Shown: piece by piece, positions 1 to 15,619 of the stretch
Layout of the letters: each line of letters starts with the position of its first letter
Position numbering within the stretch: the first letter of the stretch is position 1
Source of the DNA: a virus
Length of the DNA: 20,306 nt
Virus record (IMG/VR): IMGVR_UViG_3300020401_000127
Location: 1 to 20,306 of that record
Direction: 5' to 3' (one strand)
Position numbers and translations under genes: made by a program
Notes under the pieces: model-generated
The model's input: only the letters and a program-made list of their open reading frames with translations
What the model was told of the DNA's origin: nothing
Databases searched by the model: none

Positions 1-727
1 CTTCAATCATTTTTCTACATTCAGGCGACAAGAATATTTGTCGTTCAGTTTTATTTCTTATTTGTACATAACGCATCTCAAAGAAACCGCCTGACTCTTC
101 GATCAGGATAGACAATAACTTAGATCCTATGTGCATCTTTGTATCTCGACGCCAATCTAAAGTTTCAATTGCTTTTAACTTTCGTGTCCAATTACCCCAT
201 TGCCTTTGATTAAAATTTTTAGCCGTTCTAATTAGTCTAGCTGCAACATCAGGCGTACCTGTAGTTTTACTTTGTTGCTTGCTTTCTCGTAACCACTTCT
301 CGAATTCCATTTGTTGTTTGGTTGCCAATCCAATGTTCAAACATATTGTACGCGCGGGTCTGCCAAGGCCATTGTCAGACATACGAATAGACAATAAATT
401 TTTGATAGCAAGATAGGCAAGCTTGTCAGCTTCTACTTGTGGTAAATACCACCACCAAACAGGGCGCACTCCGCGCCCCGCATTGGCGATACCTTCAATT
501 GCAATCTCTTGTTCTCTTTTGATTGCGGGTATCAGGAGCGACATCTGTTCTTTAAATATCTCTCGACCAACCCCTGTATCGACTAGCCTTGTTTCTTTAT
601 CGACCAACAAGCGTCTAAACTTTTCGACGCCTTCGTTGATTGCAGCCATTTCAAACTTTACCTGTTCTTTTTCATCGGTCATTACCTCGGAAAGAACTTT
701 TGTTAATTGAGTTTGCATATCTGACAT
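1..727 (-). CDS. Phage single-subunit (T7-type) RNA polymerase, N-terminal part
   Basis: This frame runs open from an ATG at 727 off the left edge, so only about 242 N-terminal residues are visible. The conceptual protein begins MSDMQTQLTKVLSEV. It matches the layout of the T7 RNA polymerase N-terminal domain: a helical stretch with a conserved aromatic run (VWWWYLP near residues 89-95), a 'AYLAIKNLLS' helix like T7 'AYITIKTTLA', and 'MHIGSKLLSILIEESGGFFE' followed by 'IFLSPECRKMIEE', like T7 'IHVGVRCIEMLIESTGMV' and 'IELAPEYAEAIATR'. The polymerase would transcribe the phage middle and late genes. The start follows GAGGGAG, and its ATG shares one base with the upstream stop (TAATG), so translation is probably coupled. 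The catalytic palm and fingers lie outside the window. The family call is mine from recalled alignment. Confidence 0.85.
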   Translation of the reverse strand, partial: MSDMQTQLTKVLSEVMTDEKEQVKFEMAAINEGVEKFRRLLVDKETRLVDTGVGREIFKEQMSLLIPAIKREQEIAIEGIANAGRGVRPVWWWYLPQVEADKLAYLAIKNLLSIRMSDNGLGRPARTICLNIGLATKQQMEFEKWLRESKQQSKTTGTPDVAARLIRTAKNFNQRQWGNWTRKLKAIETLDWRRDTKMHIGSKLLSILIEESGGFFEMRYVQIRNKTERQIFLSPECRKMIE

Positions 728-963
728 TACTTTCTCCCTCGTTCTAGCGTTGCTTGGATTAGCTGACGAATATCATTTGACGATTGTTGATATTGTTTCT
801 TCCAATTTCTAGATCGAAAATAAAAAAATAAAATTAATCCAGGCTGAATGATAATAAACAACCACACATTAATTTCTTCGTATGAAAGACCTGTCATTGC
901 TGACAGATCGCGCAGCAATTGGATACACCAATTACACACGCTAACCATTATCTCTTGATACAT
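727..963 (-). CDS. Small single-pass membrane protein between integrase and RNA polymerase
   Basis: A 78-residue protein with one hydrophobic segment (about residues 33-50, VWLFIIIQPGLILFFYF) followed by a basic, hydrophilic C-terminal tail (RSRNWKKQYQQ... to ERGRK). The amphipathic N-terminus has two cysteines (CNWC). The ATG at 963 is preceded by AAAGGAG at good spacing and overlaps the last 23 nt of the integrase. An internal ATG (residue 6) is a weaker alternative start. The stop shares a base with the polymerase start. I do not recognise a family. The position between int and the polymerase suggests an early or lysogeny-related accessory function, but nothing visible shows what it does. 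Confidence 0.75.
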   Translation of the reverse strand: MYQEIMVSVCNWCIQLLRDLSAMTGLSYEEINVWLFIIIQPGLILFFYFRSRNWKKQYQQSSNDIRQLIQATLERGRK

Positions 964-2017
964 TCGCGCTCCTTTGATTTAAGATTTCAGTTGCCTTTCG
1001 TGACTCAACAGACGGCACTAAATGTGCATATCGTTGAGACATCTGTTCGTTCTTGTGACCAAGTAATTTACTGACAGAATATAAAGACATACCACCTTGC
1101 ACCAATCGTGATGCAAAAGTATGTCTGAATGAATGACAGGTAAATTTCCCGTATCGATCAACAAGAGTTTTTTCGTTTAATCCTGAAGCTTCGATCGCAT
1201 TCTTAATTACCCGTGTTGAATAACCACGAGGATTGCCGATCGTTCTCGAAGGAAAAACAAAACCGCTGCACTTATTGTCAAATCGTTTTGTCAGTATTTT
1301 TCTGACTCGTTCAGTACAATATATGATACCTTCGTTTGCCACTTTCGATCTATATAAATTGATCCATTGGAATTCCTTATCAACAGAATTCCAGGGCAAA
1401 CTAGCAATCTCATTGTACCTTGCGCCTGTATCAATCAAAAAGACAACCAAGTCTTTTGAATCACCTTCAGGCAGATTAGACAATAACCTTTCCTCTTCGC
1501 CTTCTAAAAGATATCTAGTCTTTTGTTCGACGAAAAGTTTTAAGTCTTTAAAGTTTTCGTTTGGCACATTGCAGTTATAATCGTTCCGTGCCTTATTGTA
1601 TACACATATCCAAAAAGTTATTTCATTGTTAATAGTCGAATGTTTTAACCCCTCGAATAGTCTTTTGTTTTTCAGCGTCAATAACCACATACGATTTAAC
1701 CTTGATATCGGTTGGTCTCCGTCGTTGTGATTTAATTTGTTTAAATAAACTTGATAGTCTTTGCCCGCCGACTTACCGAGCGCAATAGTGTCTTCAATGT
1801 ATTGTCTTGCTGCGCCCGCAATAGTCATACTTTTGTAGTTTTTTAGTTGAACTTCATCCAACTTCTGTTTGTTCTGTTGTCTGAACACAGACAAAGCTTC
1901 AGACTTCACTCGTCTCTTTGTACTCTGTTTGTGATATCTGACGATATTCCCTCTGTCATCAACTACAGGCAATGACATCCAATAGTACGGACTATCGTTT
2001 CTCTTATATACTGACAT
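941..2017 (-). CDS. int: Tyrosine-type site-specific integrase
   Basis: A 358-residue tyrosine recombinase that would recombine phage attP with host attB. The catalytic set is complete: R200 (DTGARYNEIASL), K225 in the beta-hairpin (YRSK), H295 and R298 (HSFRHTFASRL), H321 (LLGHKN) and the nucleophile Y330 (SQRYAHL). An N-terminal arm-binding-like segment (residues 1-50) and a SAM-like core-binding region (about 60-160) precede the catalytic domain. The ATG at 2017 has an AAAGGA Shine-Dalgarno. It is followed by the small membrane protein and then RNA polymerase, the int-before-RNAP order of temperate marine T7-like phages. An intact catalytic set argues for a functional enzyme. The upstream gap carries a large imperfect inverted repeat that may be regulatory or part of attP. 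Confidence 0.95.
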   Translation of the reverse strand: MSVYKRNDSPYYWMSLPVVDDRGNIVRYHKQSTKRRVKSEALSVFRQQNKQKLDEVQLKNYKSMTIAGAARQYIEDTIALGKSAGKDYQVYLNKLNHNDGDQPISRLNRMWLLTLKNKRLFEGLKHSTINNEITFWICVYNKARNDYNCNVPNENFKDLKLFVEQKTRYLLEGEEERLLSNLPEGDSKDLVVFLIDTGARYNEIASLPWNSVDKEFQWINLYRSKVANEGIIYCTERVRKILTKRFDNKCSGFVFPSRTIGNPRGYSTRVIKNAIEASGLNEKTLVDRYGKFTCHSFRHTFASRLVQGGMSLYSVSKLLGHKNEQMSQRYAHLVPSVESRKATEILNQRSANVSRDNG

Positions 2018-2279: not shown

Positions 2280-2471
2280 TTAACCTTCGAGAATTCGTTT
2301 CCAAGCTGCGCGTACTCGCTCTTGTTCGTCATCAGCATTTGACGGCAAACATTCGGCAGTTGCATCACAAAATTCTTCGACGACTTTTGAGATTATTTTG
2401 ACCGCTTGTTGCCATTCCATACGCTCGCTTGAACCCTTCCCAAAGCGGACAGGGTTTCCGCTATCTTTCAT
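2280..2471 (-). CDS. Small acidic/amphipathic early protein of unknown function
   Basis: About 63 residues from the ATG at 2471 (MKDSGNPVRFGKGSSERMEWQQ...), mostly helical by appearance, ending AAWKRILEG. The start is uncertain. The only Shine-Dalgarno (GCGAGGTG, near 2490-2485) is about 13 nt from this ATG but 7 nt from an in-frame TTG at 2477, and an in-frame GTG at 2486 overlaps the Shine-Dalgarno itself. The neighbouring gene uses an identical 15-nt Shine-Dalgarno block with 7-nt spacing, which favours the TTG. The predicted hammerhead cleavage at 2507/2506 would leave this gene as the first on its own mRNA, with a leader of about 30-35 nt. No family recognised. Confidence 0.65.
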   Translation of the reverse strand: MKDSGNPVRFGKGSSERMEWQQAVKIISKVVEEFCDATAECLPSNADDEQERVRAAWKRILEG

Positions 2472-2480
2472 TACCAATAA

Positions 2481-2495
2481 AATCACCTCGCTTTC
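2481..2495 (-). promoter_or_regulatory. Shine-Dalgarno block repeated at 2728-2742
   Basis: The 15 bases GAAAGCGAGGTGATT (minus strand) occur here and identically at 2742-2728. In both places they supply the GAGGTG ribosome binding site of the following small gene. This suggests a duplicated gene-start cassette, and its spacing supports the TTG at 2477 as the start of the downstream gene. Confidence 0.6.
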
Positions 2496-2499
2496 GGTT

Positions 2500-2556
2500 A
2501 GTTACGGACGCGGACTTTCGCCCGCGTTTCGTCCTTATGGACTCGTCAGCGTAACC
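2500..2556 (-). ncRNA. Hammerhead ribozyme, type I (stem I open), copy A
   Basis: Read on the minus strand from 2556: stem I strand GGTTACG (2556-2550), core CTGACGA (2549-2543), stem II GTCC/GGAC (2542-2539 and 2534-2531) with loop ATAA, then GAA (2530-2528). Stem III follows: ACGCGGGC (2527-2520) with GTCCGCGT (2515-2508), closing a GAAA tetraloop with one G.U pair. C17 is at 2507, and the second stem I strand CGTAACT is 2506-2500. All core positions match: C3 to A9, G12-A14, G10.1:C11.1, A15.1:U16.1, C15.2:G16.2 and C1.1:G2.1. Cleavage is expected between 2507 and 2506. The 3' end of the upstream gene, including its TAA stop in loop II, forms the 5' half of the ribozyme. Structure read by eye. 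Confidence 0.92.
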
Positions 2557-2723
2557 TTTTGATCGACTACATCGACCGCCTTTTTGTTCATCAAAATTTG
2601 ATTACAAAGAAAGGCTAAAAGTTTGTCAGACTCTGACCAATGTTTAGTCTCCTGAATCTTGGTTTGTGTAATATCCAAGTCTAGCAGGATTCTTAGCTTT
2701 ACTTTTTTCTTAGTCGAACTCAT
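2535..2723 (-). CDS. Small basic early protein whose 3' end encodes half a ribozyme
   Basis: 62 residues: a lysine-rich start (MSSTKKKVKLRILLDLDITQTKIQ) and a helical middle (SDKLLAFLCNQILMNKK), ending VTLTSP. The start follows GAGGTG with a 7-nt spacer and overlaps the end of the 58-residue gene by 14 nt, so translation is probably coupled. The last six codons (VTLTSP) and the stop are the stem I strand, CUGACGA core, stem II strand and loop of the type I hammerhead. The same bases are thus under both protein and RNA constraint. Ribosomes reaching the stop should disturb the ribozyme fold, so translation and self-cleavage could compete. No family recognised. Confidence 0.75.
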   Translation of the reverse strand: MSSTKKKVKLRILLDLDITQTKIQETKHWSESDKLLAFLCNQILMNKKAVDVVDQKVTLTSP

Positions 2724-2886
2724 CCGTAATCACCTCGCTTTCTTCCATTTCGTCTTCGGGTTGTCCGTTCTTTTCGTCTTCCGTTTCGTCTAACTTTTTA
2801 CGGAAAAATTTTAAGGTCTCTTCGACATCGATAACTACTCTATCGTTGTCGTCGAGACCCCAAAATACTCGTTGTTTTATGTGCAT
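2710..2886 (-). CDS. 58-residue acidic protein, too short for routine calling
   Basis: The frame starts at ATG 2886 (MHIKQRVFWGLDDNDRVVID), preceded by a strong AAGGAG inside the end of the methyltransferase gene, which it overlaps by 10 nt. It ends EVITDEFD. The C-terminal half is highly acidic (DETEDEKNGQPEDEMEES). It overlaps the next gene by 14 nt. Two coupled overlaps and a strong ribosome binding site support a real gene. An acidic protein beside a methyltransferase could be a DNA mimic or an adaptor, but that is only a guess from charge. No family recognised. Confidence 0.7.
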   Translation of the reverse strand: MHIKQRVFWGLDDNDRVVIDVEETLKFFRKKLDETEDEKNGQPEDEMEESEVITDEFD

Positions 2887-3980
2887 TTAACTCCTTCCAT
2901 TATTTGTTTGATTATTCCGATAGTCCACCCATTGCCGAGCATTCTATATCTTTGTGTTTTGCTGACATAATTAGTGTAATTATCGGGAACATTCTGCAAC
3001 CTTTCGCATTCAACAGGTGTAAGCTTTCGCCAACTATATTTGTCGGTTTCCTGTAAAATTAAATGATTGTCAGATTGAACGCTTGTAAGCGCGTTTGATT
3101 TATCGTCAAAACGCATTTCGTATTGTTGATTGTATTTAGTCTCATTAGCCTTTTTACGACCTCTGAGAGCGCCTATACCGATTTTAGGTTCAGTATTACC
3201 GCCCATACAAGCGTTGAGCGTTGGCGACTTGCCTTCGACGGAATAAACACGCTTTAAGATATCGTGTCCGTTAATATCGGACGCCATACCTATCTTTTTT
3301 AATCCGTCTTTTGATGTTTTTGGATTATCAATTAAAACCATTGTTCGTTGGTTTCGCTCGATAGAATTCCAATACACCGCGCCTTGATATCTAGCCGTCA
3401 AACAATGCGCCTTGCCGTTGTTTGTCATTGCCTTATGACTAGTGCCATTTTCTAGGATATCGCATAGCATTATGCCTTTATCCTCGAAATTTTTATTAAA
3501 TGGAATATTAGTCCAATATAAACGCTTTCGATGTTGCGCGCTTACAAGTGAACTATTTATCTCCACGGGTTCAACGCCAAGATATTTACTAATAATATCC
3601 TGACTCTCTTTTTTCATTTTGACATTTTCCAAAAGAAAATATTTCGGTTTTAACTCGTTGAGAATTTCAACAAAGTTAAAAAATAGTTTCGATCTTGGAT
3701 CTTCAAAATTTAATTGTTTACCCGCATAGCTGAACCCCTGACAAGGTGACCCGCCAAGAAGTAAATCTATTTTTGGAAATTTGTTATCTCTCCAAAATTT
3801 TAATACACCTCGAACATCGCCGAGGTGCATTGTATTTGGAAAATTTTCTTGAGCAACTTTGATAGCGTATTTATCAATCTCACTCGCGAAATAATTTTTA
3901 ACAGGAATCCGCGCTTGTTTTAGTGCAAGCTGACCGCAAGACATCCCGTCAAATAAAGATAAAACATTTAAACCTTCCAT
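2877..3980 (-). CDS. DNA (cytosine-5) methyltransferase
   Basis: 367 residues with the C5-methyltransferase motifs in order. Motif I is LSLFDGMSCGQLAL (about 7-20), for S-adenosylmethionine binding, in the DNMT3-like variant frequent in phages. Motif IV is GGSPCQGFS with catalytic C80. Motif VI is ENV (118-120), motif VIII is QHRKR (149-153). A long target-recognition region (about 180-315) is followed by motif IX (RKLTPVECERLQ, about 318-329) and motif X (RYRMLGNGW, about 345-353). It would transfer a methyl group to C5 of cytosine in a short site that cannot be read from the sequence. No partner restriction enzyme is present, so it is probably an orphan protecting phage DNA from host restriction. 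The ATG lies inside the end of the preceding gene, after GGAAAGG. Confidence 0.95.
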   Translation of the reverse strand: MEGLNVLSLFDGMSCGQLALKQARIPVKNYFASEIDKYAIKVAQENFPNTMHLGDVRGVLKFWRDNKFPKIDLLLGGSPCQGFSYAGKQLNFEDPRSKLFFNFVEILNELKPKYFLLENVKMKKESQDIISKYLGVEPVEINSSLVSAQHRKRLYWTNIPFNKNFEDKGIMLCDILENGTSHKAMTNNGKAHCLTARYQGAVYWNSIERNQRTMVLIDNPKTSKDGLKKIGMASDINGHDILKRVYSVEGKSPTLNACMGGNTEPKIGIGALRGRKKANETKYNQQYEMRFDDKSNALTSVQSDNHLILQETDKYSWRKLTPVECERLQNVPDNYTNYVSKTQRYRMLGNGWTIGIIKQIMEGVKCT

Positions 3981-4183
3981 TGTTTTACCTTTCCATTATC
4001 AGTTAAATAAACGGCGGTCGTCACACTTTGTAGATTTCCCTTTTTATTCTTATATTGAATATTTACGGGAATTTTTGGAAATTTACTAGCAATCTTCCTA
4101 AGACATTTTTTATAGGAATTTTCACTAATAACTTCTGTTTGTTCCGCTGACGGAACTTTGCTAATTGTGTAGTCGTATCGCAT
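3968..4183 (-). CDS. Small basic early protein, unknown function
   Basis: 71 residues (MRYDYTISKVPSAEQTEVISENSYKK...), lysine-rich. The second half looks like short beta strands (VNIQYKNKKGNLQSVTTAVYLTDNGKVKQWKV). It starts after AAAGAAAGGCTAAAAA, nearly the same leader as the 157-residue gene. It overlaps the methyltransferase start by 13 nt and shares its mRNA. Cleavage by the type II hammerhead at 4251/4250 would make it the first gene on a processed RNA with a 67-nt leader. No family recognised. A 60-residue frame overlapping it in another register is rejected. Confidence 0.75.
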   Translation of the reverse strand: MRYDYTISKVPSAEQTEVISENSYKKCLRKIASKFPKIPVNIQYKNKKGNLQSVTTAVYLTDNGKVKQWKV

Positions 4184-4221
4184 TTTTTAGCCTTTCTTTT
4201 GTTAATATTCTGATAAATAAA

Positions 4222-4281
4222 AAACCTCATCAGCGCCCGCAACACGGACGGACGCGGGCAAAAATACCCGCGTTTCGGTTT
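4222..4281 (-). ncRNA. Hammerhead ribozyme, type II (stem II open), copy B
   Basis: Read on the minus strand: stem II 3' strand AAACC (4281-4277), GAA (4276-4274), stem III ACGCGGG (4273-4267) with CCCGCGT (4258-4252) and loop TATTTTTG. Cleavage base C17 is 4251. Stem I is CGTCCG (4250-4245) with CGGGCG (4239-4234), loop TGTTG and one G.U pair. Then core CTGATGA (4233-4227) and stem II 5' strand GGTTT (4226-4222). This is the hammerhead core circularly permuted so that stem II is the open end. All conserved core pairs are present. Cleavage is expected between 4251 and 4250. The TAA stop of the upstream gene (4282-4280) provides part of stem II. Confidence 0.92.
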
Positions 4282-4753
4282 AGCCTGTTATTTGTTCGGT
4301 CGTTGTTTTTCTATCAAGATAAACGCGTAAATTTTTAGATTTAGAAATTGGTTGTCCGTGATAGGTGCAACCTGTTTTTCTAAATTCGTCTTTTACATTT
4401 TGACCTTTTACACGCATTTTATATCCGTCTTTATTTAGATAGATTTTTAAAAGTTTTATAAATTGCTTTCCAAAATCATCATTCGGGATTTTTTCAAAAG
4501 CCATTTCATAACCTACATTGTAAGTTTTATATTTTGGCGCAAGTCTATCGTAGAACGATTTAGACATTAGAGTTTTTTTAACTATTCGTAAAAGGTGGAC
4601 TAATTCCATATCAAGAATATTTATATATTCCTGTTTGCTTTCCGAAAAGTATTTTAAACCCTCGTCGTTAAAATCTTGTAAATCACACGGGAAAGCGCGC
4701 CCGTCGTTATCGTGAATTACTTTATCGATTTCTAAAAGTTTTCTTATTTGCAT
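4280..4753 (-). CDS. Early protein of unknown function between two ribozymes
   Basis: 157 residues, no family recognised. The N-terminal half is helical (LLEIDKVIHDNDGRAFPCDLQDFNDEGLKYFSE), and the C-terminal half is rich in lysine and arginine, ending with a strand-like basic stretch (KSKNLRVYLDRKTTTEQITG). Two cysteines are isolated (FPCDL and TGCTYH), so a metal site is not obvious. The start at 4753 follows AAAGAAAGGCTATAAA, the same leader type as the 71-residue gene. It is flanked by type II hammerheads on both sides, so processing would release it as a monocistronic mRNA with a 5'-hydroxyl end and a 63-nt leader. Confidence 0.8.
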   Translation of the reverse strand: MQIRKLLEIDKVIHDNDGRAFPCDLQDFNDEGLKYFSESKQEYINILDMELVHLLRIVKKTLMSKSFYDRLAPKYKTYNVGYEMAFEKIPNDDFGKQFIKLLKIYLNKDGYKMRVKGQNVKDEFRKTGCTYHGQPISKSKNLRVYLDRKTTTEQITG

Positions 4754-4788
4754 TTTATAGCCTTTCTTTTGTTTGTTCTAACTCGGTT

Positions 4789-4844
4789 ATCCTCGTCAGC
4801 GCCGACATAATCGACGGACGCGAGCAATTGCCCGCGTTTCGGAT
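4789..4844 (-). ncRNA. Hammerhead ribozyme, type II (stem II open), copy C
   Basis: Read on the minus strand: stem II 3' strand ATCC (4844-4841), GAA (4840-4838), stem III ACGCGGGC (4837-4830) with GCTCGCGT (4825-4818), loop AATT and one G.U pair. Cleavage base C17 is 4817. Stem I is CGTCGA (4816-4811) with TCGGCG (4805-4800), loop TTATG and one G.U pair. Then core CTGACGA (4799-4793) and stem II 5' strand GGAT (4792-4789). Cleavage is expected between 4817 and 4816. Copies B and C share stem III and the open-stem-II layout but differ in stem I, stem II and loops with pairing kept, which is covariation supporting a conserved RNA fold. Confidence 0.92.
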
Positions 4845-11191: not shown

Positions 11192-13732
11192 CTAAAACAA
11201 TACTAATTTAGGCGTATAGAAACTATGACCATCGTCTTCAGGAATAGCGTAAGAACCACCATATCCCCACATAAAGAGTTGACCATCTTCTAGCAATGCA
11301 GCCCAACCACCTTCACTTGATTGTCCGTGTTGAGAAATCTGTATTACTTTGCCTGGTAATCCATAAACTTCGTAGAACACTTGGTAGTTATTACCTGTTT
11401 GTCCTACACCGACTTGACCGTTTCCATTATAACCACAAACCCAAACCTTACCTTCTGAAGTTAGTACCGCAGAAGTTTGATATTGTGTTCCGCCCGCAAA
11501 CATAGCTTGAGTGACGGTAAATGGATAACTAGCTGCTGATAGTGTTTGGTTAGCATAAGTTCCGTCGTTTTGTAGTAAACGGAATTTCATTTCTGTATAT
11601 GTGTTTAATGCAGTTGTGTTACCTTGACCTAATTGTCCATAGCCATTGTAACCCGCAGCCCAAACGCTTCCATCAGTTTTAATAATCATTGTTGAATTAT
11701 AGTTATCAGTACAATGTGTAACTGCTACTTTAGATACATCACTCATAACATTTGTTGGGTTATAGTAATTACCCGCAGTACCACCACGACCAAAGTAACC
11801 ATTGTTATCATAACCCCAATTCCAAAGATTGTTGGCAGTATCAATAACAAAGACACCTTTGTGACTTACCGCAGCAATTCTATCAATTACATTACCACCA
11901 TTAGTCGGGCCAACCACAGGAACAATAGTCGGTGTTGTGTGGTTAGTCGTGTTATTTTCTCCGTGTTGGTAGTAACCTGTATATCCAACAGAATATACAT
12001 CTCCGTTTTCTGTAAGAACTATTAGTGTTGGATTAGACGCACTACTAATTTCAATTTGTTTAGCTTTGTAAGCAGAAACACCACCTACACCAAATGTAGG
12101 ATATTGTTTAAACTGATATTGAGCCGAAGTATTACCTTGACCCATAACGCCGTGGCCATTGTAACCTGATCCGTAAACGAATCCATCTTCGTCTCGAACA
12201 ACAATTGCGCCGTTGTTTCCGTCAGTTGCGTGTGGTGTTGCTAGTTCAACAATTTTCTTTCTTGACGAAGGTACTGATGTACTACCAATACCACCTGTAT
12301 AGTTAGTTCTTGTAGAAATATTTACAGGTACACCTCTTCGTCCTTCAAAAGTTCCACCCCCAGTGTTGTTTTGAATACCCATTTCGCCGTAGTTATTATT
12401 ACCCCAAGTCCAAAGATGGTTGTTTTTATCAATACAAGCACCATAAGAGTTGTAGTTTTGCATAAAGTTTCCTTCAACTTGTGTGTCGATACCTGGAAAC
12501 TCTTGCGGAAATGCTACAGGAATAGGTTGTGATCTGTTATTTGTAGTATATCCGATACCACCTTTGTAATTTCCGTTGTTACCCCACCATCTTAGTGAGC
12601 CATCTTGCATAAGAACCATTTGTGATCGGTAACTTCCCGCCATATCAACTTTTAATTTAGCAACTTTTGTACCTGATCGTACACTTTCTTGTTCCCAAAC
12701 AGGCATAAGTGTAGATTCGTCAATTTTTAAGACTTGATTTTCTGCACCAACAGGTAATGTTTGTAGTTGTGTGCCATCATAGTACAATAAATCACCTTCA
12801 ACACTTCCTGTCGAGTCTACACCCGTAGCAAATGTTGCCCAATTGGAAGAATTAACGGTCACCGACACCGATGCTTTTGCAGTTGGTAGCGAACCGCCCA
12901 TTCCAGAATGGAAATGACAATAATAGTAGAGATTTGGGGCATCTACAGGTACTTGAATTTGTACATACCTTGTAGTTGCGTTGGTGTAAGCGCTAGAAGT
13001 GTAAGCAGCTAGACCATCACCAAGAGAATTGACCGTTAGTACAATATCAGTTGTACCTGTACCAACAATGCTTGATGCAGCAATAGTAATTGTGTCGTTG
13101 ACGGCGTAACCTGTACCACTATCTTTTTTAACAATAGTCGCGTTACCACTTCCATCAATTTGTACATCGCAAATAAAACCCGTTCCTGAACCACTTGAAG
13201 TAGTAGCAACATTAGAGTTAATGTTTGCGGTTCTTCCCGCATCATATCCACCTGAAGTTAGAGTAAATGCTCCAACAACATTCTTATCTTGTGCCGCAGC
13301 ACCATCTAGGTAATAACTTACGCCTGACGAATAGTTAGTTCCCGCACTAGGAGAGGTAGTGTGAGTTCCATCTGAAGTCGCGCTAAATAGGAGAGGATGA
13401 TTAGCGTTAGACGAATCGTTTTGGTAGAACTTGTAAGTGTTACCTTCAATTAATTTAAGATATTTTTGTTTTACATAAGTACCAGAGCCATCAGTTACAT
13501 CGATGTAAAAATAATTAGAGCCACCATCAGATTGTACTTTTGCGTAGTATTCTTCAGTAGCCGTACCTAAGTTTGTAGAGACCGTTGCGGGTACTACATT
13601 ATTTGTACCATCTTGTGTACAAATATAAGTCGTACCATTAAAGGCCGCTATATCTTGTTCGTTGTAAGTTGCCGTGTTGGAATAATTTCCTCTCCACGAA
13701 AACTTAACCTTTCCTAATGAAATTGTCGTCAT
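11192..13732 (-). CDS. RCC1-repeat tail/receptor-binding protein with cupredoxin-like domain
   Basis: 846 residues in four parts. Residues 1-55 form a small aromatic tail module (KFSWRGNYSNTATYNEQDIAAFNGTTYICTQ). About 70-295 is a cupredoxin-like domain with NHPLLF (H112) and YYYCHFHSGMGG (C272, H275, M278), interrupted at about 152-238 by an inserted beta module (GSGTGFICDVQIDGSGNATIV...GTGYAVNDTITI). A linker (GDLLYYDGTQLQTLPVGAENQVLKI) leads to RCC1-type blades from about 360 to the end, each with 'DGSLRWWGNN', 'NNHLWTWGNNNYGEMG' or 'GDVYSVGYTGYYQHG' signatures. RCC1 propellers bind proteins or glycans, so receptor binding at the tail is the likely role. It ends KLVLF, like its neighbour. 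The start follows AAGGAGAG. Confidence 0.82.
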   Translation of the reverse strand: MTTISLGKVKFSWRGNYSNTATYNEQDIAAFNGTTYICTQDGTNNVVPATVSTNLGTATEEYYAKVQSDGGSNYFYIDVTDGSGTYVKQKYLKLIEGNTYKFYQNDSSNANHPLLFSATSDGTHTTSPSAGTNYSSGVSYYLDGAAAQDKNVVGAFTLTSGGYDAGRTANINSNVATTSSGSGTGFICDVQIDGSGNATIVKKDSGTGYAVNDTITIAASSIVGTGTTDIVLTVNSLGDGLAAYTSSAYTNATTRYVQIQVPVDAPNLYYYCHFHSGMGGSLPTAKASVSVTVNSSNWATFATGVDSTGSVEGDLLYYDGTQLQTLPVGAENQVLKIDESTLMPVWEQESVRSGTKVAKLKVDMAGSYRSQMVLMQDGSLRWWGNNGNYKGGIGYTTNNRSQPIPVAFPQEFPGIDTQVEGNFMQNYNSYGACIDKNNHLWTWGNNNYGEMGIQNNTGGGTFEGRRGVPVNISTRTNYTGGIGSTSVPSSRKKIVELATPHATDGNNGAIVVRDEDGFVYGSGYNGHGVMGQGNTSAQYQFKQYPTFGVGGVSAYKAKQIEISSASNPTLIVLTENGDVYSVGYTGYYQHGENNTTNHTTPTIVPVVGPTNGGNVIDRIAAVSHKGVFVIDTANNLWNWGYDNNGYFGRGGTAGNYYNPTNVMSDVSKVAVTHCTDNYNSTMIIKTDGSVWAAGYNGYGQLGQGNTTALNTYTEMKFRLLQNDGTYANQTLSAASYPFTVTQAMFAGGTQYQTSAVLTSEGKVWVCGYNGNGQVGVGQTGNNYQVFYEVYGLPGKVIQISQHGQSSEGGWAALLEDGQLFMWGYGGSYAIPEDDGHSFYTPKLVLF

Positions 13733-13747
13733 TATATTCTCTCCTTG

Positions 13748-15619
13748 TTAAAATATTACCTTTTTAGGTGTACTGATGTTGATGTCATCATCGTTAGCAT
13801 TTAATTGGCGACTACCCCAACCGACCGTGTACACATCTCCGTTTTCACCGAGCAAACACCAATTGCTTGCGCCAGTTGCGTCGCTTATATATCCCGCAAC
13901 TTCGTAATCAATAATTTTATCGTTTACTTGTGCTGAAGGAATTCCGTCTGATTGAAAGTTATATGGATGTATGTTACCGCTAGTTCCTGTGCCGTCTCCA
14001 CCTTGGTTGTTATAACCCCAAGAGAAGAAGTAACCATCCGTTGTTAAACTTGCAAACACCCTTCCGTATCGTCCGTGGTGTGAATAAAATTTTGATTTAT
14101 CGTAAACATTGGTACCAGGATGAATGTGTTTATATGTTTGATCTTTTCCATCTTCAGTTCTAAATCTTATTCTATTCCATCCACCGCCTGTGCCTGTGCC
14201 TGTTGAATTATATTTGGAGTTTCCATTATATGCTCCGCCGACACTATATCCGACTTGCCATATAGAACCATTACCCATTAATGCTGCATAAGATTCATAA
14301 CCGCCCGCATTACCATAGGCGTCTATAACACCCCCAACATTAACGCCTGATGCGTTACCGCCGTAGGCAGAAGCACCCCCGAAGATCGTTTGTCCGTCGT
14401 TAGATGTTAGTTGTGAAGCTCCGCCGATTATTGGTGGAGTCCAACCAGGGTGTGAACTATACGCTGAAACTTGTCCTGTACTATTACCTAATCCCCACAG
14501 ACGACCATTAGCGTCACCTACGACAATAGTTTCATAATATTGAGTACCATTCGCCCAATGTCCGTCAGATCCCGCACTTCTCATAAAAGTAAAACTAGGG
14601 TTAGATACGCCTGTATATTCTACGAAACCTTCATATAAATTTGATGAATGTAAATTTCTACTTTGATAACCACAAATATATAATTTTCCGTTAGTATCTA
14701 TTAGTGTTGTTGTAGCGTAGTTACCTGAGTTTAAAAATATTGCTTTATTTCTAATTGGTGGCATTGCCGTACCATTAGCAAGTGTTGTAACTTTAGTTGG
14801 TTTTCGTTGTGGACTAGTTGTACCCCCATAGCCACATTGACCATCTGAGTTAAATCCCCACGAATAAACACCACCTTCGTCGTCTTGCGCCCACATACAA
14901 GTGTGACCTTGACCAACATTGTAATCTCTATCGGTAATAAACCACACGATTTTCTTACCTTCCATATCAGTACCTTCACTAATATTTACAAATCGGTATT
15001 GCGCTTGGTTTGAGCCATTTCCGTGATTAGGTTTCCAAGACCAACCACCCCACTCACTATTACTACCACACGCCCAAAGTTGATGATCTTGATCAAGACA
15101 AAATATATTGTTTTCCATTTGAAACGCATCAATGATCATTCGATCGCCTGGTAACGCAACACGAGTTGGATTCATAGATGAAATATCACCCATATTACCT
15201 GTACCCGCTTTACTATTTCTTAGGTCTCCCCAAACTCTAAGAGATCCGTCTGTCATAATTGCGCCGTGTACATATCCGTGTTGATAAGACGAACTTGTTT
15301 TCTTTTTACGCATTAATTTAACGGCTCTAGTTCCTGGTCTTTCACCTGGAAATCTAAACTCGACCGTTCCGTTTTGTGAATGTAAATAAGTATTCTTTGC
15401 GCCTGTTGCTCCGCCTGTTAAAGAGGTAGTTACTAATTGTCCTTTTGTAGTTGCGTGTTGTTGACCTTTAGCAAACTCAATCCACGCACCATTATAATAG
15501 TAGTAAACTTCTCCATCTTTTCGTACAACATCATAGTTTATATAAGTAGAACTAGCGTTGAAGATACCTTTCCATCGATAGCCAAGTTTTGTATAATCTA
15601 TAAATTGTGTACTAGTCAT
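13748..15619 (-). CDS. RCC1-repeat tail/receptor-binding protein, shorter paralogue
   Basis: 623 residues. The N-terminal module (YRWKGIFNASSTYINYDVVRKDGEVYYYYNGAWIEF, about 13-48) is like that of the next gene, followed by a linker and RCC1 blades from about 100 to the C-terminus (GAIMTDGSLRVWGD, HQLWACGSNSEWG, GGVYSWGFNSDGQCGYGG, GSIWQVGYSVGG, GYFFSWGYNNQGGDG, GDVYTVGWGS). It lacks the cupredoxin-like domain. It ends TPKKVIF where the other ends TPKLVLF. The two genes are tandem paralogues directly after the tail-fibre adaptor, which suggests two alternative or stacked receptor-binding tips. The start has AAGGAGAAAATA before the ATG. Confidence 0.82.
   Translation of the reverse strand: MTSTQFIDYTKLGYRWKGIFNASSTYINYDVVRKDGEVYYYYNGAWIEFAKGQQHATTKGQLVTTSLTGGATGAKNTYLHSQNGTVEFRFPGERPGTRAVKLMRKKKTSSSYQHGYVHGAIMTDGSLRVWGDLRNSKAGTGNMGDISSMNPTRVALPGDRMIIDAFQMENNIFCLDQDHQLWACGSNSEWGGWSWKPNHGNGSNQAQYRFVNISEGTDMEGKKIVWFITDRDYNVGQGHTCMWAQDDEGGVYSWGFNSDGQCGYGGTTSPQRKPTKVTTLANGTAMPPIRNKAIFLNSGNYATTTLIDTNGKLYICGYQSRNLHSSNLYEGFVEYTGVSNPSFTFMRSAGSDGHWANGTQYYETIVVGDANGRLWGLGNSTGQVSAYSSHPGWTPPIIGGASQLTSNDGQTIFGGASAYGGNASGVNVGGVIDAYGNAGGYESYAALMGNGSIWQVGYSVGGAYNGNSKYNSTGTGTGGGWNRIRFRTEDGKDQTYKHIHPGTNVYDKSKFYSHHGRYGRVFASLTTDGYFFSWGYNNQGGDGTGTSGNIHPYNFQSDGIPSAQVNDKIIDYEVAGYISDATGASNWCLLGENGDVYTVGWGSRQLNANDDDINISTPKKVIF

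Follow-up and report, generated by a model that had tools for sequence, protein, structure and literature searches.

Hammerhead ribozymes of mixed type at the early-gene junctions of a marine temperate T7-like phage: candidate processors of the early operon

Three hammerhead ribozymes of types II, II, and I, all with intact cores, lie on the coding strand of a marine phage genome, at the junctions between early genes. These elements (HHR1, HHR2, and HHR3) are probably cis-acting and self-cleaving, and would process the phage's early operon at its gene junctions, as judged from sequence comparison. The window, which is the whole 20,306-nucleotide stretch analyzed here (IMG/VR record IMGVR_UViG_3300020401_000127), carries all of its genes on the minus strand in the order virion and tail genes, terminase, endolysin, the GP88-like gene, a 157-residue gene, a 71-residue gene, a C5 methyltransferase, small genes, the integrase, and the start of an RNA polymerase gene (Table 1). 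The gene boundaries are as given in an earlier note on this DNA, and Pfam identifies GP88, the C5 methylase, the integrase, and the RNA polymerase N-terminus. The source is a marine temperate T7-like phage carrying an integrase; the T7-like genome, also claimed earlier, is supported. The 157-residue gene had no match in the Pfam and PHROG searches.

Table 1. Ribozymes, predicted cleavage sites, and genes in the window.
Feature	Coordinates	Strand	Basis or remark
HHR1, hammerhead of type II with open stem II; begins 2 nt past the GP88 stop	4789..4844	-	cmscan, descriptor, covariation, MFE
HHR1 predicted cleavage site, C17 at 4817 / 4816	4816..4817	-	inferred from hammerhead core
HHR2, hammerhead of type II, overlapping the 157-residue gene's stop codon	4222..4281	-	cmscan, descriptor, covariation, MFE
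HHR2 predicted cleavage site	4250..4251	-	inferred from core
HHR3, hammerhead of type I with open stem I	2500..2556	-	cmscan, descriptor, MFE
HHR3 predicted cleavage site	2506..2507	-	inferred from core
GP88-like early gene preceding HHR1, 262 aa	4847..5635	-	PF17338, E 3.2e-35
157-aa gene between HHR1 and HHR2	4280..4753	-	SD AGAAAGG after HHR1
71-aa gene, opens the block after HHR2	3968..4183	-	SD AGAAAGG
C5-cytosine DNA methyltransferase	2877..3980	-	PF00145, E 1.8e-47
62-aa ORF, end inside HHR3	2535..2723	-	gene calls
68-aa gene, opens the int block downstream of HHR3	2280..2486	-	gene calls
Tyrosine integrase	941..2017	-	PF00589, E 2.1e-22
N-terminal part of a single-subunit T7-type RNA polymerase; gene runs past the window edge	2..727	-	PF14700, E 1.2e-12; phrog_414

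Detection and fold of the three elements

The Rfam search that the earlier note had proposed gave matches at all three sites. With cmscan, HHR3 was matched by the type I model (RF00163, Hammerhead_1) at 2555-2501(-) with 33.9 bits (E 3.8e-5; curated cut-off 34), and the type II model (RF02276, Hammerhead_II; curated cut-off 37) matched HHR1 at 4844-4783(-) with 29.0 bits (E 0.027) and HHR2 at 4278-4226(-) with 27.6 bits (E 0.065). Expressed as a one-family, one-record search, the two type II E-values are 6.5e-6 and 1.5e-5. The window copies match these families in core, stems, and topology, but their scores (27.6-33.9 bits) all fall under the curated cut-offs, the gathering score being a curation threshold rather than a structural feature; nine relatives exceed the type II cut-off.

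A core-plus-stem descriptor, built independently of Rfam, returned exactly the three intervals of Table 1 in the window, together with the same three cleavage positions that the earlier note had predicted. On 200 random windows matched for dinucleotide composition it gave 2 hits, or 0.01 per window against the three observed, and a relaxed version gave none in 4.05 Mb of random sequence. The core features (CUGANGA, GAA, A15.1:U16.1, H17, and G10.1:C11.1) are present in the window elements by both cmscan and the descriptor, and each minimal element has as its MFE fold a hammerhead with three helices joined at the core. The Rfam models, the descriptor, and the folds therefore agree with the earlier placement of three intact hammerheads on the coding strand, and the Rfam models likewise bear out the mixture of types within one set.

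A weak RAGATH-1 match at the HHR3 position (26.0 bits against a cut-off of 56.3) covers the same core and was rejected. The Rfam scan of the early regions returned only hammerheads, tRNA, and tmRNA above cut-off and no other ribozyme family. The 5' half of HHR3 (2556-2535) doubles as the coding end of the 62-residue ORF, the stop codon of which is located in loop II.

Core conservation and covariation of the stems

The GAAAC, GUC, and CUGANGA segments are invariant in 20/20 aligned type II copies, 19 of which could be parsed for a count of stem covariation. Positions 1-5 of stem I are paired in all 19 copies with four to five pair types each, compared with a cross-sequence pairing of 41-54%, and stem III shows the same pattern outside its two fixed pairs. 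L003 is the closest distinct relative of the window, and 15 substitutions separate the two in the three elements, none at the 14 fixed core positions per element (P about 0.015 for the sparing of the fixed core); the loss of core residues in close relatives, which the earlier note had said would refute the idea, is not seen in L003. Two of the differences from L003, C4842G and G4791C, form a compensatory pair in stem II of HHR1.

Distribution among relatives

The relatives comprised 55 IMG/VR contigs recruited by terminase, and 50 records were searched with the hammerhead models. Type II matches occurred in 15 of the 50 records, 9 of them above the curated cut-off, and type I matches in 4; the best type II score was 53.8 bits, and copies in slots equivalent to those of the window scored 38.6-51.3 bits. 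Relaxed searching added type III hammerheads in G011 and G046 and two type I copies in L026, and the descriptor gave types I, I, and II for the cluster in L042. In six near-complete genomes (G002, G003, G006, G009, G011, and G046), all 11 hammerheads are situated on the coding strand between TerL and int, an interval that makes up 9-15% of each genome; the chance figure for this placement, 2e-14, assumes independence, which related genomes do not have.

The HHR1 slot is also filled in L003, G003, G004, G006, and G039. A counterpart of HHR2 exists in L003, and G004 and G006 show the order GP88, hammerhead, methyltransferase, without a second copy or the 157-residue gene; HHR2 is, on this comparison, an extra copy that accompanies the 157-residue gene. 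Hammerheads also exist in cultured phages. In Rhizobium phage vB_RleA_TRX32-1, an element at 39597-39668 (32 bits) directly follows the GP88 gene, and Rhizobium phage RHEph01 has one at 2078-2148 (28.4 bits). TRX32-1 is a phage that was induced from a lysogen.

No hammerhead was detected in L034 and L040, in both of which the GP88-to-int region is present, or in the examined stretches of a Devosia enhydra contig and a Magnetococcales MAG (TerL 56-61% identical; 61% for the Devosia prophage). The cultured pelagiphages and Roseobacter phages with a similar gene order that were searched (HTVC134P, HTVC309P, HTVC120P, Bylgja, CRP-114, and others) also gave none. Because L034, L040, and the Devosia prophage are relatives free of hammerheads, the function would be dispensable or replaceable.

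Placement at stop codons and exchange of topology

The ribozyme starts between -3 and +5 nt from the upstream stop codon in 22/30 copies, and where these copies have a recognizable gene downstream, its SD-led start codon lies in most cases 19-41 nt past the element. A broader set of type II copies, taken from other phage contigs, numbered 120; an upstream stop lies within 300 nt in 58 of these, and 25 of the 58 are no more than 5 nt from it.

The junction between the methyltransferase and int holds a type I hammerhead in the window and L003 and a type II hammerhead in G003, whose TerL is 88% identical; the genes flanking the element in G003 and the window are homologous (E 3.5e-4 upstream and 8e-9 downstream). 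Type II is also found at this junction in G006, G009, and G039. The first early junction is mostly occupied by type II, with type I in L026 and L029 and type III in G011 and G046, and at least three changes of type are needed on the TerL tree. Since the same junctions hold type I, II, III, or no ribozyme across related phages, the comparison argues that selection acts on the cut at the early-gene junctions.

The CGCGGG stem III is common to all three window elements across types, and L042_1 (type I) and L042_3 (type II) have an identical stem III sequence, whereas the sequence differs from genome to genome. This sharing across types within a genome, combined with the differences between genomes, suggests that new ribozyme copies were derived from an older copy in the same genome.

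Proposed processing of the early transcript

From the sequence, structure, covariation, placement, and topology exchange of the elements, we infer that they would cleave in the cell, with consequences for mRNA stability and expression. Each element would cut the early transcript once, just 3' of the stop codon of the upstream gene, giving four mRNAs that carry GP88; the 157-residue gene; the small gene and the methyltransferase; and the 68-residue gene and the integrase (plus the RNA polymerase). The cut of a type II hammerhead is located after stem III, so the stem III hairpin would stay on the 3' end of the upstream mRNA, whose terminus would be a 2',3'-cyclic phosphate. The downstream mRNA would open with a 5'-hydroxyl followed by the stem I hairpin, both in front of a ribosome-binding site. 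As both new ends would be structured, the stability and translation of neighboring early genes should be uncoupled, and such ends would tolerate the exchange of gene cassettes between ribozymes.

The gene order fits cuts at early-gene junctions in a transcript running toward the phage RNA polymerase gene, the extent of that transcript being assumed. Scans of the hammerhead region for sigma-70 promoters and terminators gave nothing above shuffled sequence, which makes the transcript extent an assumption, and a crude repeated-motif search for a phage promoter motif near the ribozymes returned only leaders resembling ribosome-binding sites.

A tertiary contact between stem I and stem II is needed for fast hammerhead cleavage at low Mg2+, and a pseudoknot is common in type II. 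Pairing between loop I and the tail is enriched in 128 other phage copies (p 5e-10) but is not above control for the window copies or for the clade, and stem I of HHR3 is a plain 7-bp helix that offers loop II neither a loop nor a bulge for docking. Given the lack of a demonstrable pseudoknot and the undockable stem I of HHR3, cleavage of the window hammerheads at physiological Mg2+ could be slow. When more flanking sequence is folded, CUGANGA in HHR1 and HHR2 can instead be paired with the tail.

Discussion

Processing at gene junctions has to be weighed against other uses of the same elements. If they were mobile or hitch-hiking DNA insertions, or seams of recombination, RNA cleavage would be incidental and not selected for any benefit to the phage. 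Several observations fit this view: TRX32-1 and RHEph01 have the same gene downstream of the element and unrelated genes upstream, L003 carries an additional 62-residue gene between GP88 and HHR1, and stem III is common to different types within a genome (in the window and L042). A DNA-level repeat, however, would preserve sequence rather than catalysis, so the divergence of the stems and loops alongside a retained catalytic core and pairing counts against insertion, as do the three topologies in the same slots and the confinement of all copies to the coding strand of one genome region; we regard this explanation as improbable. Active hammerheads could also serve RNA circularization or splicing, in which two cuts would release a middle piece to be closed by hammerhead ligation or by a host ligase, as in retrozymes. 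HHR1 and HHR2 share the CGCGGG stem III and parts of the core, and the two ends of the excised piece with the 157-residue gene would, on a reading of its sequence, supply what makes up a hybrid type II product complex. Their stem II strands, however, match over 2 bp only, and the near-complete genomes G011 and G046 have a single hammerhead each and hence no pair to bound a circle. Furthermore, Perreault et al. (PMC3088659) searched for splicing or circularization by clustered bacterial hammerheads and found no such products. This use appears highly unlikely.

The elements may instead be conditional switches, in which cleavage is gated by the ribosome that terminates the upstream gene or by a tail hairpin that hides CUGANGA. 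The stop codons do adjoin or overlap the elements, although such abutment is also expected from genome compaction. The tail-core pairing of HHR1 and HHR2 in the 3' product is raised over control (0.71 against 0.31 for HHR1 of the window and 0.85 against 0.20 for HHR1 of L003), and the window and L003 differ on both sides of it, yet core-tail pairing is not above control in the clade (p 0.18) or in the 128 other phage copies (p 0.36). Gating of this kind is decidedly unlikely in our judgment. A regulatory core-hiding hairpin as a general feature was rejected, being present in the window and L003 and not above control elsewhere. Processing at the junctions thus remains the preferred reading. A joint reading, which would combine cuts at set junctions, a ribozyme rebuilt among three permutations, timing by the ribosome at the stop codon, and exchangeable boundaries of early (anti-restriction) cassettes, is put forward tentatively, as a rather unlikely combination.

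Hammerheads of this kind are already known, since clustered prophage hammerheads with a processing proposal were described by Perreault et al. in 2011 (PMC3088659). In that study, close-set hammerheads flank genes or short blocks in prophages, a figure marks them as type I, II, or III, and the processing of long phage transcripts was suggested as a role, with the purpose of bacterial and phage hammerheads left open. The earlier note's statement that it knew of no such description was therefore too strong; its operon-processor role gains from the comparative data, although the concept itself had been proposed in PMC3088659. The prophage clusters, such as the Agrobacterium tumefaciens triple around ardA, resemble the window in having several hammerheads that flank genes or blocks in one cluster, and both are located near integrase and anti-restriction genes, with operon processing proposed. 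Tandem arrangements were found to cleave in vitro, and the Agrobacterium triple both in vitro and in E. coli (PMC3088659), whereas cleavage of the window elements is a prediction from their sequence. In contrast to those clusters, the present elements belong to a T7-type lineage with a single-subunit RNA polymerase, occupy orthologous slots, exchange topology in place, and abut stop codons. No report of hammerheads in T7-like phages was found in the largely open-access literature searched. To the known kind our analysis adds a T7-like lineage, slots that stay fixed while the topology is swapped, a fit to stop codons, and members in culture. Retrozymes and viroid-like circular RNAs also have paired hammerheads around a segment, but the window has no repeat structure, one copy per junction, and protein-coding early genes in between.

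In T7, the host protein RNase III cuts the early mRNA between cistrons at double-stranded hairpins, leaving a 5'-phosphate and a 3'-OH. By analogy, the proposed system would likewise make intercistronic cuts in an early transcript and leave structured ends, but here the RNA would cut itself, leaving a 5'-OH and a 2',3'-cyclic phosphate. The lineage offers a natural comparison, with corresponding junctions that hold a type I, II, or III ribozyme or none, and the cultured Rhizobium phages TRX32-1 and RHEph01 make the role testable. If confirmed, hammerhead cleavage at these junctions would be a protein-free counterpart to the RNase III processing of T7.

Sequences around the type II hammerheads

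Many of the type II hammerheads in the window's clade, those of the cultured Rhizobium phages TRX32-1 and RHEph01 among them, carry an additional U that separates A9 from stem II (CUGAYGA-U-GCC or -GGC); examples are in L059, L061, L063, L064, L074, L145 and L146. At the 3' side of the window's two type II hammerheads, HHR1 and HHR2, the CUGANGA can pair with the tail into a predicted hairpin. Both sides of the HHR1 tail hairpin are altered between the window and L003, its closest distinct relative. A leader, AACAAAAGAAAGGCTA, follows each of HHR1 and HHR2 and is similar to a motif like ACGTAAACAAAAGGAAA that is common to six early leaders ahead of start codons in the phage records of G046 (L104-L106).

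Gene neighborhoods

The first hammerhead is preceded by an ArdC-type anti-restriction gene in part of the clade and by GP88 elsewhere; hammerheads adjoining ardA have been described by Perreault et al. (PMC3088659). The tmRNA-family matches in two other phage records, G039 and G009, are possibly an attP copy of the host ssrA end. Translation of the window's tail-gene region gives a protein of 846 aa and another of 623 aa, both large and packed with RCC1-like WGxNxxGQxG repeats.

Features near the hammerheads and in the tail-gene region
Feature	Record	Positions	Remarks
HHR1 tail hairpin	window	4774-4797	predicted
HHR2 tail hairpin	window	4206-4228	predicted
ArdC-type anti-restriction factor gene	L042	2446-3330	before first hammerhead; PF08401, PF18818
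ArdC-type anti-restriction factor gene	L022	3542-4498	before first hammerhead; PF08401, PF18818
tmRNA-family match, 80 nt (G039)	L107	10891-10970	gap between endolysin and first early gene
tmRNA-family match, 80 nt (G009)	L100	2380-2460	gap between endolysin and first early gene
RCC1-like repeat proteins	window	11192-15619	tail-gene region

Dense arrays in other phages

A pattern scan of IMG/VR contigs returned phages, other than that of the window, in which type II hammerheads are very densely arrayed: 13 within ~9 kb in L193, 10 within ~7.6 kb in L172 and ~8.6 kb in L222, nine within ~6.9 kb in L220, and seven within ~3.5 kb in L163.
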